Assembly (NCBI RefSeq): GCF_023208195.1 | Contig: NZ_CP060034.1 | Coordinates: 3,162,001-3,226,000 of the forward strand | DNA from: Nocardioides sp. InS609-2 | Lineage (GTDB): Bacteria; Actinomycetota; Actinomycetes; Propionibacteriales; Nocardioidaceae | DNA: 64,000 bases | Reading direction: 5' to 3' | Part shown: one piece after another, positions 1,836-42,893 of the stretch | How positions within the stretch are numbered: position 1 is the first letter of the stretch | Layout: every line of letters starts with the position of its first letter | The notes under the pieces: model-generated | Told to the model about the DNA's origin: nothing | Database searches by the model: none | The model's input: the letters and a program-made list of their open reading frames with translations, nothing else | Program-made: the position numbers and the translations under genes

Positions 1836-2525
1836 TCAGAAGCGGCGCCACCAGACGTTGACCGCGTAGTCGACGTCGGTGCCCTCGTGAGCGGCCAGGA
1901 GCTCGTCGGCCAGCGCGGGCGTGAACTCGATGCGTACGACGCTCTCGAGGTCGGCCCGGGTCTCGAACCGCCAGCCCATGTCGACGGCGAGGCGGGTCCA
2001 GCCGTGCGTCGACCAGAACCGCTCGACCTCGTCGGGGTCGATCATCGGGTAGCCGCGCCGGAACCAGCCCCCGAAGGTCGAGCGCCGCGCGTCGTTGTCG
2101 ATCACGAAGGCGGTGCCGCCGCGACGTACGACCCGGTCGAGCTCGGCCAGCCCGGGCTCGCAGCCGGGGCCGAAGAAGTAGGCCCAGCGCGCCTGCGCGA
2201 CGTCGACGCTGGCGTCGGGCAGCGGAATGGCCTCGGCCAGGCCGGACATGACAGTGACGTTCTCCAGCCTGCGTGTACGACGGCGGGCCAGCCCCACGAG
2301 GTCGGGGTGCGGCTCGATGCCGACGACGCGCTGCGCCGTACCAGCCCAGAGGGGCAGGTGGAACCCGGTGCCGCAGCCGAGGTCGAGCAAGTCACGCCCG
2401 GCCCAGTCCGTCACCGAATGCATCGCGTCGAGGATGAGGCCGTGCGGGTCTGCGGCGCGGTTCTCGAGCTCGTACGTCGCCGTGTGGTGCCAGATGTTGG
2501 GGCTCGGGATGGCCCCGTCGAGCAT
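1836..2525 (-). CDS. Class I SAM-dependent methyltransferase
   Basis: The 229-aa protein carries the SAM-binding motif LLDLGCGTGFHLPLWAG at about residues 48-64. The acidic motif II follows (VVGIEPHPD), then a SGLAEAIPLPDASVD segment typical of Methyltransf_11 proteins. The substrate is unknown. ATG 2525 was chosen because it forms an ATGA overlap with the stop of the upstream VOC gene, which puts the two genes in one transcript. The 41 residues upstream in frame are Arg/Pro-rich and are not considered coding. The gene converges on the sigma-factor partner with a 6-bp gap at 1830-1835. Confidence 0.88.
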   Translation of the reverse strand: MLDGAIPSPNIWHHTATYELENRAADPHGLILDAMHSVTDWAGRDLLDLGCGTGFHLPLWAGTAQRVVGIEPHPDLVGLARRRTRRLENVTVMSGLAEAIPLPDASVDVAQARWAYFFGPGCEPGLAELDRVVRRGGTAFVIDNDARRSTFGGWFRRGYPMIDPDEVERFWSTHGWTRLAVDMGWRFETRADLESVVRIEFTPALADELLAAHEGTDVDYAVNVWWRRF

Positions 2526-3163
2526 CAGATGCGGACGAGACCCGAGGGGGTCTGGATCTGCGCGGCGATGATGCCGGGGGCGCCGTTCGGGGCGACCCAG
2601 TCGACCTTGACGTCCTCGAGCGGCTGCTCCACCGACTGGCCGAGCCACTCGCTGACCCGCTGGGAGTCACCGGCGATCTCGAGGCAGGCGAGGGAGTACT
2701 CACCGTCGGCGCCGTGGCCGGGGTGCAGCTCGGCGGGCACCTCCCAGTGGATGAAGAACGGCAGCTGCGGGTCGCTGATCAGGCCGTTGACGCCGATCTG
2801 CTTCCACAGCAGCTCGGTGCCGTCGGGGCGGTGCCGATTGCCCTTGACGGCTTCACGGCCGAGGCGTTGCTCCATCTCGTGGATGTCGTCGACCGACACA
2901 CACCAGCCGAGCCAGCCGCCACCGAGCAGTGAGCGCGCACGCACGGCCTGCCCGAACGGGGCCTTGTCGGAGGCGGGGTGGTCGAGGACCTCGACGATCT
3001 CGAGGTAGGTGCCCTCGGAGAGCGGCAGGGTCATGTTGCGAGTGCCGAAGCGCGGGTGGACTCCACCATCGGTGAAGTCCCTGCCGAGAAGTTCCCCCAG
3101 GCGCTGGGCGGTGCTGGCGAGGCCGTCGGGTCCGGCGGCGAACGAGAGGTGGTCCAGGCGCAT
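2525..3163 (-). CDS. VOC-superfamily (glyoxalase-like) protein
   Basis: The 212-aa protein starts MRLDHLSFAAG and contains GTRNMTLPLSEGTYLEIVEV at about residues 40-59. This is the His plus Glu pattern of a glyoxalase/bleomycin-resistance (VOC, Glyoxalase_3-like) fold, and a second repeat holds FIHWEVP. Such proteins bind a metal or a small ligand; the substrate here is not evident. ATG 3163 has no clear Shine-Dalgarno sequence, but on the minus strand a CAGAAT hexamer ends 6 nt upstream, matching the leaderless promoter pattern seen across the window. It is the first gene of a two-gene unit with the methyltransferase. Confidence 0.87.
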   Translation of the reverse strand: MRLDHLSFAAGPDGLASTAQRLGELLGRDFTDGGVHPRFGTRNMTLPLSEGTYLEIVEVLDHPASDKAPFGQAVRARSLLGGGWLGWCVSVDDIHEMEQRLGREAVKGNRHRPDGTELLWKQIGVNGLISDPQLPFFIHWEVPAELHPGHGADGEYSLACLEIAGDSQRVSEWLGQSVEQPLEDVKVDWVAPNGAPGIIAAQIQTPSGLVRI

Positions 3164-3240: not shown

Positions 3241-3355
3241 TTTCTGTCGTGATACCCGGTCAGCTGGGGATCCCTTCGCTCTGCCGTAGTTGCGCAACGC
3301 ACTCAAACCGTGAGGAACGACGTCAAACCTCCGGTTGCTTCGTCCTCAGCGAGGG
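3241..3355 (+). repeat. Solitary copy (copy 1) of a ~100-bp palindrome-containing repeat
   Basis: The block starts TTTCTGTCGTGATACCCGGT and contains the palindromic core ACCCGGTCAGCTGGGG, then GTTGCGCAACGCACTCAA and GAGGAACGACG, and ends in CGAGGGT. The same modules occur in the same order at 40778-40882 and in reverse orientation at 41897-41988. This copy has no nuclease gene beside it. Its inner end runs over the stop codon (3346-3348) of the neighbouring Cys-rich gene. Boundaries are approximate because the copies are only about 65-70% identical by eye. Confidence 0.65.
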
Positions 3356-40502: not shown

Positions 40503-40769
40503 GTGAAAGAGTTCGTCGTCTACACCGCCCTGCGCCTCGTCCTGTTCGTTGCGTCCCTGCTCATCGTGATCGGTGTCTGGGCGCTCGTGGCCGGCACGGA
40601 CAGCGTCCACTCCATCTGGTCGGTGGTGCTGGCCTTCATGCTGTCCGGCGTCGCGTCGTACTTCCTGCTCAACCGCCAGCGCGAGGCCTTTGCCCAGCGG
40701 GTCGAGGGGCGGGCGCGCCGGGCGACCGCTGCCTTCGACCAGCGGCGTGGGGGCGAGGACTCGGAGTAG
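40503..40769 (+). CDS. DUF4229 small membrane protein
   Basis: The 88-aa protein has two helices (about residues 8-28 and 36-56) and a basic/acidic C-terminal tail (FLLNRQREAFAQRVEGRARR), matching the DUF4229 family common in actinobacteria. Function is unknown. GTG 40503 has TAGGCT (40491-40496) ending exactly 6 nt upstream and no Shine-Dalgarno sequence, so a leaderless mRNA is likely. It ends just before the left repeat of the nuclease-gene element. Confidence 0.85.
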   Translation: MKEFVVYTALRLVLFVASLLIVIGVWALVAGTDSVHSIWSVVLAFMLSGVASYFLLNRQREAFAQRVEGRARRATAAFDQRRGGEDSE

Positions 40770-40777
40770 GGGGTCGC

Positions 40778-40882
40778 TGGTTTGCAGTGATACCCGGTCA
40801 GCCGGGTGTCACGTCGGCTCGGCGTCGTTGCAACGCACACGCAGCGCGAGGAGCGACGCCGCAGTTCGCCGTTGACGAGGGT
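40778..40882 (+). repeat. Left inverted-repeat arm (copy 2)
   Basis: The arm contains GTGATACCCGGTCAGCCGGG (from 40787), whose 9-bp stem GATACCCGG/CCGGGTGTC has loop TCAG. TCACGTCG, CGTTGCAACG (40826-40835) and GAGCGACGCCG follow, then GACGAGGGT. The module order equals copy 1 at 3241-3355 and is reversed in copy 3. Confidence 0.7.
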
Positions 40883-40889
40883 TATCCAC
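40881..40889 (+). promoter_or_regulatory. Perfect DnaA-box-like 9-mer
   Basis: TTATCCACA matches the DnaA-box consensus exactly, at the inner edge of the left repeat and 53 bp before the nuclease-like gene. It is a single box without a cluster, so it is not evidence of an origin. It may be part of the element. Confidence 0.5.
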
Positions 40890-40941
40890 AGGCGGCGGAA
40901 CGGCGAGTGCAAGGGCTGGCGGTGCCGGGCAATGTCATGTC

Positions 40942-41895
40942 ATGGCAATCGCGAATGAGTACATCGACCTGCACGGCGTCGTCTTCCTTCGACGCGAAGC
41001 GATGGCAGAAGGCTACAGCGACCGGGCGATAGCGGCCCAAGTGAAGTCGGAAGAGTGGCATCGCGTCCGTCGTGGTGCCTACTGCTCGGGCGCGCTGTGG
41101 GGGTCGCTGTCGCGCGCTGATCAGCACCGTGTCCTGGCGCGCGCCGTGCTACGCACAGCGCATCCGACGTCGGTCCTCAGCCATCAGTCGGCTGCAATCG
41201 AGCACGGTGCGCCAGTGTGGGGCGTCCCACTCAACCAGGTGCACCTCACGCGCACCGACGGGAAGGCTGGGAGACGAGAAGCGGGTCTCGTCCATCACCG
41301 TGGGGCACTGCCCCAGGAGCATGTCGTCACGCTCAACGGCGTACCCGTCACCTCGGCTACCAGGGTCGCGGTGGAGGTGACGACCGTTGCCTCCGTGGAA
41401 TCAGCTCTGGTCACGGTCAACGGCCTGCTGCATGCCAAGGCGACGACACAGCAGGCGATATCGGCGCTCGTCAATGACTTCCGCTTCTGGCCCCACAGTC
41501 TCGCCGCCGATCTCGTCATGCGGCTGGCGGACCACCGGATCGAGTCGCCGGGGGAGAGCCGGTTCCTCTACCTGTGCTGGAACCAGCACCTGCCACGCCC
41601 GAAGCCCCAGGTCTGGGTATACGAAGCAGGCCGTCGCGTGGCTCGCCTCGACTTCGCGTGGCCAGAGTACGGCGTCTTCGTGGAGTTCGACGGTCGTGAG
41701 AAGTACGTGCGTTTCCGCCGTGAGGGCGAGACACTCGACCAGTTCCTGATGCGCGAGAAGAAGCGCGAGGAACGTGTGTGTCTGCTGACTGGCTGGGTGT
41801 GCATCCGCATCAGCTGGGCTGATCTGTCGCAACCCGAGGTGACGGCGAGGCGAATCCGGCGCCTGCTCGCGCGTCGTAAGCCGAAGGAGGCGTGA
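40942..41895 (+). CDS. AbiEi-like N-terminal domain plus DUF559/Vsr-like nuclease domain protein
   Basis: In this 317-aa protein, residues about 10-60 form a winged-helix of the type IV toxin-antitoxin AbiEi N-terminal kind (FLRREAMAEGYSDRAIAAQV ... WHRVRRGAY). The middle resembles AbiEi_4 (VLSHQSAAIEHGAPVWG). The C-terminus (about 200-305) has ESRFLYLCW and VARLDFAWPEYGVFVEFDG, the E...D-x(n)-ExD pattern of the DUF559/very-short-patch-repair nuclease fold. No AbiEii toxin gene is adjacent. CAATGT ends 6 nt before ATG 40942. The gene is alone between inverted repeats. Confidence 0.8.
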   Translation: MAIANEYIDLHGVVFLRREAMAEGYSDRAIAAQVKSEEWHRVRRGAYCSGALWGSLSRADQHRVLARAVLRTAHPTSVLSHQSAAIEHGAPVWGVPLNQVHLTRTDGKAGRREAGLVHHRGALPQEHVVTLNGVPVTSATRVAVEVTTVASVESALVTVNGLLHAKATTQQAISALVNDFRFWPHSLAADLVMRLADHRIESPGESRFLYLCWNQHLPRPKPQVWVYEAGRRVARLDFAWPEYGVFVEFDGREKYVRFRREGETLDQFLMREKKREERVCLLTGWVCIRISWADLSQPEVTARRIRRLLARRKPKEA

Positions 41896-41896
41896 G

Positions 41897-41988
41897 GCCG
41901 ACCTTCGGCGTCGTTCCACTCGCCCTGGTGTCGTTGCAACGCACTCAAGGCGACGTGATACCCGGTCAGCCGGGTGTCCCGACAGAAA
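41897..41988 (-). repeat. Right inverted-repeat arm (copy 3)
   Basis: Read on the minus strand the arm runs TTTCTGTCGGGACACCCGGC, then GGGTATCACGTCG, CGTTGCAACG and GGAACGACGCCG. It matches copies 1 and 2 module for module. The outermost TTTCTGTCG (41980-41988) is also present at the outer end of copy 1 but poorly kept in copy 2. It starts immediately after the stop of the nuclease-like gene. Confidence 0.7.
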
Positions 41989-42008
41989 GCGGCAGTCGCA
42001 ACCGCCCC

Positions 42009-42881
42009 TCAGGGCACCAGCAGGAACACCACCACGAGCCCGGCCCACCACAGCTGGGCGAGGCCGGTCTGGGCAAGGACGGGGATGAGGCCGGGGCCGC
42101 TGGCGCCACGGAGTACGGCGCGGGTCGGCGGGGTCGCGACGACGAGGAAGGCCAGCGCGCCGAGCACCCACCAGGTGGTCGCGGCGGCGATGGCGACGAT
42201 CGCGAACGCGGCGGCGAGCACGAGGAGCAGGTAGAGGTAGCGGGAGCGCTGCTCGCCGATGCGGACGGCGAGCGTGCGCTTCCCTGACTCCACATCGGTG
42301 TGGATGTCGCGCAGGTTGTTGGCCACCAGGATCGCGCAGGCGAGCGCGCCGACGCCGATGCCGGCGTACAGGGCGGGCCACTGCCAGGACTCGGTCTGGA
42401 CGTACGTCGTACCGACCACCGCGACCAGGCCGAAGAAGACGAACACCATGACCTCGCCGAGGCCGAGGTAGCCGTAGGGCTTCGACCCGCCGGTGTAGAA
42501 CCACGCCGCCACGATGCAGATCAGCCCGACGGCGACCAGCCACCAGGCCGTTGTCGCAGCGAGCACGAGCCCGGCGACCGCTGCGACACCGAACGCGAGG
42601 AACGCCGCCGCCTTCACGGCGCGCGGAGTCGCCGTCGCAGACCCGACCAGCCGCATCGGCCCCACCCGCGCGTCGTCGGTGCCGCGGATGCCGTCGGAGT
42701 AGTCGTTGGCGTAGTTGACGCCCACCTGCAGCGCCAGGCTGACCGCCAGCGCGAGCAGCGCCTTCCACCACACCAGCCCGTCGGCGTACGTCGCGACGCC
42801 GGTGCCCGCGAGCACGGGAGCGATGGCGGCGGGCAGGGTGCGCGGGCGCGCCCCGGCGATCCAGTCGGCGGTGGTGGTCAC
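42009..42881 (-). CDS. menA: 1,4-dihydroxy-2-naphthoate polyprenyltransferase
   Basis: The 290-aa UbiA-family membrane enzyme attaches the prenyl tail in menaquinone synthesis. The first Asp-rich motif is [15 protein letters not shown] (about residues 57-71) and the second is [16 protein letters not shown] (about 184-199); eight or nine helices are apparent. GTG 42881 was chosen because relatives begin a few residues before [17 protein letters not shown] at 42893, directly after the MFS stop, is the alternative. It follows the MFS gene on the same strand and converges on the repeat arm. Confidence 0.93.
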
Positions 42882-42893
42882 CCGGGTATCCAA

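Follow-up and report, generated by a model that had tools for sequence, protein, structure and literature searches.

Why should a single gene be enclosed by two inverted copies of a repeat that also occurs without it? The question is raised by Nocardioides sp. InS609-2 (the host), in which a 64,000-nucleotide stretch (the window; contig NZ_CP060034.1, positions 3,162,001 to 3,226,000) contains a gene for a 317-residue protein between two repeat copies, and a third, solitary copy elsewhere. We consider it probable (roughly 0.6) that gene and repeat form a two-part repeat-spreading system resembling that of RAYTs and REPINs, with an unrelated enzyme. At the level of sequence, genome comparisons establish the architecture of the unit, the matching of repeats to cognate genes, their dispersal, their differing occupancy among relatives, purifying selection on the gene and a predicted fold of its product. 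They support an association between gene and repeat as well as past spread of the repeats, for which the protein as mover would be the simplest reading. The features on which the argument turns are listed by position in the window; the repeat model takes in a few flanking columns, hence its coordinates run slightly beyond the repeat itself.

40785..40874, plus strand: repeat copy 2, upstream flank; repeat-model match 93.3 bits, folding z -2.49
40942..41895, plus strand: gene, 317 aa; AbiEi-antitoxin-like N-terminal half and Vsr/homing-endonuclease-like C-terminal half
41650..41703, plus strand: codons for putative catalytic residues D237, E248, D250 and K254, from conservation in the homolog alignment
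41893..41982, minus strand: repeat copy 3, downstream flank, inverted; repeat-model match 91.4 bits, folding z -3.25
3247..3338, plus strand: repeat copy 1, solo and degenerate; 69.4 bits, folding z -0.58; intergenic according to a crude gene caller

Copies 2 and 3 form an inverted pair around the single open frame at 40942..41895. Pairwise identity across about 82 bp is 68% for copies 2 and 3, 71% for copies 2 and 1 and 59% for copies 3 and 1, compared with a mean of 48% and a maximum of 57% for 200 shuffled copies. The original prediction, made from the letters of the window, had located all three copies correctly, with copies 2 and 3 inverted about one gene and some 70% identical; its placement of copy 3 needs one correction, as the model match extends up to the stop codon of the gene. 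The hairpin of copy 2 reads GATACCCGG-TCAG-CCGGGTGTC and is followed by a second hairpin around GTTGCAAC. A search of the 64-kb window against Rfam gave no match.

Proteins of the same clade (defined at E <= 1e-30) are encoded in 160 of 196 Nocardioides genomes, with 1-5 matches each. At 73 loci, 320 bp on each side were compared for a shared inverted repeat scoring at least 41, a value that 600 shuffles (mean 20, maximum 39) did not reach. These loci comprise the five homologs of the host, 29 more best matches and 39 chosen by place, several of the last picked for a nearby hairpin, so the sample is partly non-blind. Flanking inverted repeats were found at 68 of the 73 loci, as opposed to 0 of 30 menA loci, 1 of 29 PAP2 loci and 0 of 78 same-length windows shifted by 1300 bp in the same genus. 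With few exceptions, the downstream repeat begins no more than about 40 bp from the stop codon, and the upstream repeat ends 69-184 bp ahead of the aligned start. No flanking repeat was found at L138, L139, L143 and the distant host paralogs L022 and L023. Among nine proteins scanned, only these two paralogs match the Pfam model DUF559 (L022 at 20.1 bits, with a cut-off of 20.6, and L023 at 23.4), which suggests that the repeats go with this subfamily rather than with DUF559 proteins generally. Paired inverted copies thus accompany the gene family far above controls, as had been proposed, but the proposed tie to DUF559 genes as such fails with L022 and L023. A second, distant protein clade (host paralog L021, G000:C1:2306366-2307247; L254, L265 and L271) has other flanking repeats, with ends like TGTAACGCGG...CCGCGTTACA that are common to several species.

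As judged from these alignments, repeat type tracks the protein lineage and not the genome. The repeats are unrelated in 14 of 15 same-genome homolog pairs (scores up to 28; 31 loci compared), the exception being a pair that is 82% identical and has a repeat score of 69; between genomes, the median repeat score is 73 for loci with at least 70% protein identity and 21 for those below 60%. A common plan can be traced by eye: the first of two hairpins commonly reads CCCCGG-NNNN-CCGGGG, the second is frequently centred on TGCA, and one arm is present in a third copy; the repeat is a double hairpin of about 80-90 bp. For one type, of which 31 copies were compared, the 26 proposed pairs are formed in 90% of cells, versus 25-42% when slid, and six of the 26 vary on both sides. 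The covariation score was matched by 2 of 500 shuffles; the counts of covarying pairs and of pair types were reached by 366 and 393 of the 500, so support for the structure is modest.

Copy 1 stands without the gene, as predicted, and further copies are dispersed over the 4.52-Mb host genome. The 18-bp hairpin core has 18 matches there with at most two mismatches, and its reversed control none; on reading, two of these (L017 and L018) proved to be chance matches and 16 real sites, 13 full-length and three hairpin-only. A crude gene caller places 12 of the 16 between genes, and the sites lie mostly near gene ends; L001, L009 and L015 overlap frame ends by about 60, 3 and 10 bp, respectively, and L016 was flagged as within a frame. 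CGTC follows the stem in 12 of the 13 full-length copies. A covariance model (R1) built from these 13, with which 150 of 6855 first-look candidates in the host genome were scored, revealed no further full-length copy. Of its 31 weaker matches, 18 fall on the 16 sites already known, many of them on the opposite strand, and 13 elsewhere (E 0.005-0.065), two of which adjoin the host's 51%-identical paralog. Judged by eye, a further module resembling a hairpin (AGAAGCAC...GTGCTTCT-like) lies next to the hairpin-only copies L010, L011 and L016, which suggests mosaic repeats.

Across the 196 genomes, a generic hairpin pattern gave 3781 matches versus 14 for its control, with a median of 15 per genome where the protein is present and 2 where it is missing (Mann-Whitney p = 5e-7, a value that is too small because the genomes are related). 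Ten of the 36 genomes without the protein still have at least 10 matches. Doublets occur at spacings of 62 or 84 bp; of the 20 places listed for G162, 16 fall into eight pairs at the 62-bp spacing. Sixty-seven dispersed copies sampled from seven genomes were compared with the gene flanks in a pool of 30 loci, the sister species G012 and G022 being counted as one. The best match was a gene flank of the copy's own genome or its sister species for 54 of the 67: 12 of 14 in the host (G000), 20 of 20 in G012 and G022, 10 of 10 in G162, 6 of 6 in G047 (one of these is the gene's own flank), 4 of 8 in G055 and 2 of 9 in G057. Two of the 13 misses are hairpin-only copies of the host; for the other 11, which come from G055 and G057, no cognate gene was found. 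The solo copies anticipated by the original prediction therefore exist, and mostly match the gene of their own genome. L261 in G055, a gene whose repeat type is dispersed in that genome, carries an in-frame TGA, as if the gene had recently been lost.

Occupancy in relatives, which had been singled out as informative about mobility, is not identical: empty sites, lone repeats and whole elements all occur. The site of host copy L014, downstream of a PAP2 gene, was compared in the 30 nearest genomes. It holds the whole element in eight, a lone repeat in seven, nothing but 9 to 26 bp in five, and other or unassigned sequence in six (G005, G017, G086, G128, G140 and G141); four sites mislocated by the pattern (G021, G075, G127 and G167) were left out of these counts. 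Six of the seven lone repeats best match the flank of their genome's own gene elsewhere, with scores for the own and the next flank of 97 versus 60 in the host, 91 versus 58 in G100, 94 versus 56 in G076 and 70 versus 58 in G177, and own scores of 118 in G121 and 110 in G116, the last tied with a sister type; in G178 a relative's type scores 80 and its own 53. It follows that this one intergenic position has received lone repeats of different types in different species. For G100 some caution is due, since the hairpin core of its lone repeat is GATATC, as in whole elements at the PAP2 site, although the whole repeat still matches its own gene (91 versus 58). We rejected the view that lone repeats are remnants of a lost whole element, both on account of these matches to own gene flanks and because recombination across an inverted pair would flip the intervening DNA instead of removing it. 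The PAP2 site also harbours a repeat of another, unrelated kind, about 60-70 bp long (GCGTCATGCGAACC...GGGATGACG-like), in L367 (G141), L348 (G017) and L349 (G076), with tandem copies in two of them.

What kind of protein accompanies these repeats? An AbiEi_4 helix-turn-helix is its sole Pfam match, and its AbiEi-like half (residues 11-197) is supported as an AbiEi-type DNA-binding part by both Pfam and predicted-structure comparison. In the predicted structure model, the C-terminal half (residues about 200-314) has a Vsr/I-Bth0305I-like fold, with a homing endonuclease as the best structural match. The C-terminus had been described as DUF559/Vsr-type; the Vsr part of this description agrees with the predicted fold, whereas the DUF559 model (PF04480) does not match the protein. 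In 28 aligned homologs E248, D250 and K254 are invariant and D237 is found in at least 90%, and these four are candidate catalytic residues. A relaxed search for the nuclease-like motif detected it in 68 of 73 proteins of the genus and 48 of 56 from outside, some being missed through spacing limits. The protein had no match in PHROGs, and a PDB sequence search returned nothing except AbaSI at E 0.4. Purifying selection acts on the gene: 11 chosen pairs gave dN/dS of 0.08-0.32. All 73 frames are free of internal stops, but two matches in the 196-genome protein list and one elsewhere have them. Sources label such proteins AbiEi antitoxins or very-short-patch-repair endonucleases.

In three papers (PMC3116915; PMC3733652; PMC8266576), RAYT/REPIN systems are described as a low-copy gene with inverted palindromic repeat flanks, lineage-specific repeats, several gene-repeat pairs per genome and many extragenic copies, some of them inverted doublets of fixed spacing. 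Like REP/REPIN-RAYT, REPtrons and TIRtrons, the present system has a low-copy gene, inverted palindromic flanks, lineage-specific repeats and several pairs per genome; it further shares with RAYT/REPIN many dispersed copies, mostly extragenic (gene position was checked at the 16 host sites), inverted doublets (G162) and orphan repeats where the gene is missing. Unlike RAYTs, its nuclease family shows no match to the Y1 (HUH) transposase in the protein, and Y1_Tnp has none in the host genome, compared with matches in 5 of 14 control genomes. Its 80-90 bp double hairpins also differ from REPs in that neither the repeat alignments nor the cross-locus repeat list has a conserved GTAG tag at the stem foot. 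The comparison with REP and RAYT drawn at the outset was thus apt: the genomic signature matches, with an unrelated nuclease family, and by analogy the system would work like RAYT/REPIN without being a member. No dedicated transposase was found for the dispersed CGTC-tagged REP palindromes in PMC3733652, where an entire REP super-family remains without a transposase; host copies resemble these palindromes in having CGTC after the stem (12 of 13), whereas other lineages of the present family lack this tag. The main text of that paper does not contain the words Actinobacteria, Actinomycetales or Nocardioides.

The protein shares its AbiEi-type DNA-binding half with the AbiE type IV toxin-antitoxin system, but its immediate gene neighbours encode DUF4229 and UbiA proteins, with no AbiEii nucleotidyltransferase toxin partner among them. 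Unlike in an AbiEi antitoxin, a nuclease-like domain follows and dispersed repeats flank the gene. Its C-terminal half has the predicted fold of the Vsr repair endonuclease and the homing endonuclease I-Bth0305I but differs from them in its EFDGxxKY motif, the joined AbiEi-like half and a repeat family of its own; TnsA of Tn7 is a further system that we count among the closest known. To our knowledge, RAYTs are the sole dedicated enzymes known for REP-like repeats. The literature covered, outside which lie most subscription papers and preprints, has no description linking this protein family with repeats. The enzyme family is related neither to RAYTs nor to the transposases known to us; a definition of the kind by its repeats would make it a variant.

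In the mechanism that we propose, a low-copy chromosomal gene would encode a protein for a lineage-specific repeat, which the AbiEi-like half would recognise and the Vsr-like half would cut or nick. For the protein, the inverted copies beside its gene would be the cognate sites; the solo repeats and the inverted doublets would be non-autonomous copies, spread in trans into intergenic sites, often just past stop codons. As a guess at the route, an extruded hairpin might be nicked and then copied in during replication or repair. That the protein binds and cleaves DNA, and that it moves the repeats rather than another enzyme doing so, is what we infer.

The partnership extends beyond the genus. 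The protein is found in 105 of 296 genomes of the host's class, in 54 of 114 genera. From outside the genus 56 loci were taken, one of which was too short; at a threshold set by the maximum of 550 shuffles, 47 of the remaining 55 have flanking inverted repeats, at just 28-45% protein identity. In one family the repeat often begins AATGATCACGTTCA, a 14-mer with up to 296 matches per genome (at most one mismatch), compared with one control match in 28 genomes and none in two Nocardioides searched; it is few or absent in several genomes of the same family. Pairs of repeat heads (doublets) are seen here as well. Judgeable copies best match their own genome's gene in eight of nine genomes, with G236 as the miss and G315 close (43 versus 41); this count leaves out G214, G324, G384 and G392, in which all matches were below 40 and taken as chance, and copies from genomes without their own flank in the comparison. 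We would give even odds that these loci represent a repeat-mobilising class, unrelated to described transposases, that is common throughout the actinobacterial class of the host and whose AbiEi-like/Vsr-like nuclease reads its own double-hairpin repeat and copies it into intergenic DNA; such a class would explain many orphan 'AbiEi antitoxin' annotations. In G351, six repeat matches lie 100-132 bp from the starts of contigs C3, C10, C19, C24, C26 and C27, as if near-identical repeat copies had broken the assembly.

Other explanations fit part of this evidence. The promoters of AbiEi antitoxins contain inverted repeats to which these proteins themselves bind, host copies are mostly at gene ends, and the gene is under purifying selection at conserved loci, as might be expected of a chromosomal regulator or nuclease with the repeats as binding sites for autoregulation, a terminator or mRNA-end function or chromosome organisation; another enzyme or replication slippage would then spread the repeats, and the flanking pair would be kept for gene control. 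However, promoter operators need neither an inverted copy right past the stop codon nor a repeat whose head motif is matched 296 times in a single genome; conservation of the nuclease-like motif also speaks against such a regulator, and lone copies at one site, mostly of the species' own type, point to insertion, so we regard it as unlikely. A compact insertion sequence of the conventional kind, now mostly immobile, with terminal inverted repeats of 90 bp and with solo copies that would be miniature inverted-repeat transposable elements, appears decidedly improbable: the one-gene unit of about 1.2 kb has inverted ends, and species-specific short derivatives exist, but there are just 1-5 matches per genome in the 160 protein-bearing genomes, the 15 same-genome pairs are 43-82% identical with no near-identical multicopy set, the ends are double hairpins, and no target duplication is evident at the one site compared. 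Most doubtful is a homing or addiction element, in which a Vsr/I-Bth0305I-like nuclease would cut repeat-free sites and repair would copy the element in. The predicted structural similarity to a homing endonuclease and the occupied and empty alleles of one site would suit it, yet homing targets one homologous site, and here matches occur at tens to hundreds of places per genome.

Several observations weigh against the spreading of repeats by their own protein. Since gene and flanks are linked, their shared divergence alone is no proof of interaction. Clear repeats are lacking at L138, L139 and L143 and at 8 of the 55 loci outside the genus. No matching gene was found in the genome for seven of the nine copies sampled in G057 or for four of the eight in G055, and G045 has eight hairpins but just a distant homolog. 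In a wider pool of about 76 loci, which predates the finding of second genes in G047, G055 and G162, the own gene came top for 10 of 14 host copies and 18 of 20 in G012 and G022; one host miss, L014, was outranked only since its chromosomal surroundings match other genomes' loci. No target-site duplication was evident where boundaries were compared by eye, at the PAP2 site, and no excision product was seen. Whole elements stand at conserved loci in many species, so the gene itself would move rarely.

If repeat spreading by the protein is nevertheless correct, proteins labelled AbiEi antitoxins or very-short-patch-repair endonucleases would gain a testable function, and many natural protein-repeat pairs would be at hand for studying hairpin recognition by a nuclease. 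An unrelated nuclease-like family shows a RAYT-like genomic signature, and the same partnership with different repeats in related bacteria suggests that small DNA repeats can spread by a route not recognised so far.

The element of the window itself is bordered by two genes.

40503..40769, plus strand: left neighbour, DUF4229 protein
42009..42893, minus strand: right neighbour, convergent, UbiA-family prenyltransferase, which we take to be MenA

Among the 30 nearest genomes including the host, the gene lies within 1.5 kb of this menA site in the host and G100 and is absent there from the other 28. L173, the one relative examined, carries a GNAT-type gene in the gap from DUF4229 to menA; this GNAT/SCP2-type gene is missing from the host at 40770-42008, where the element stands instead. 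A homolog with a different repeat type, L145 (G049; 2053-3006), occupies the same menA-ccs neighbourhood but on the opposite side of the DUF4229 position, which may reflect an independent arrival.
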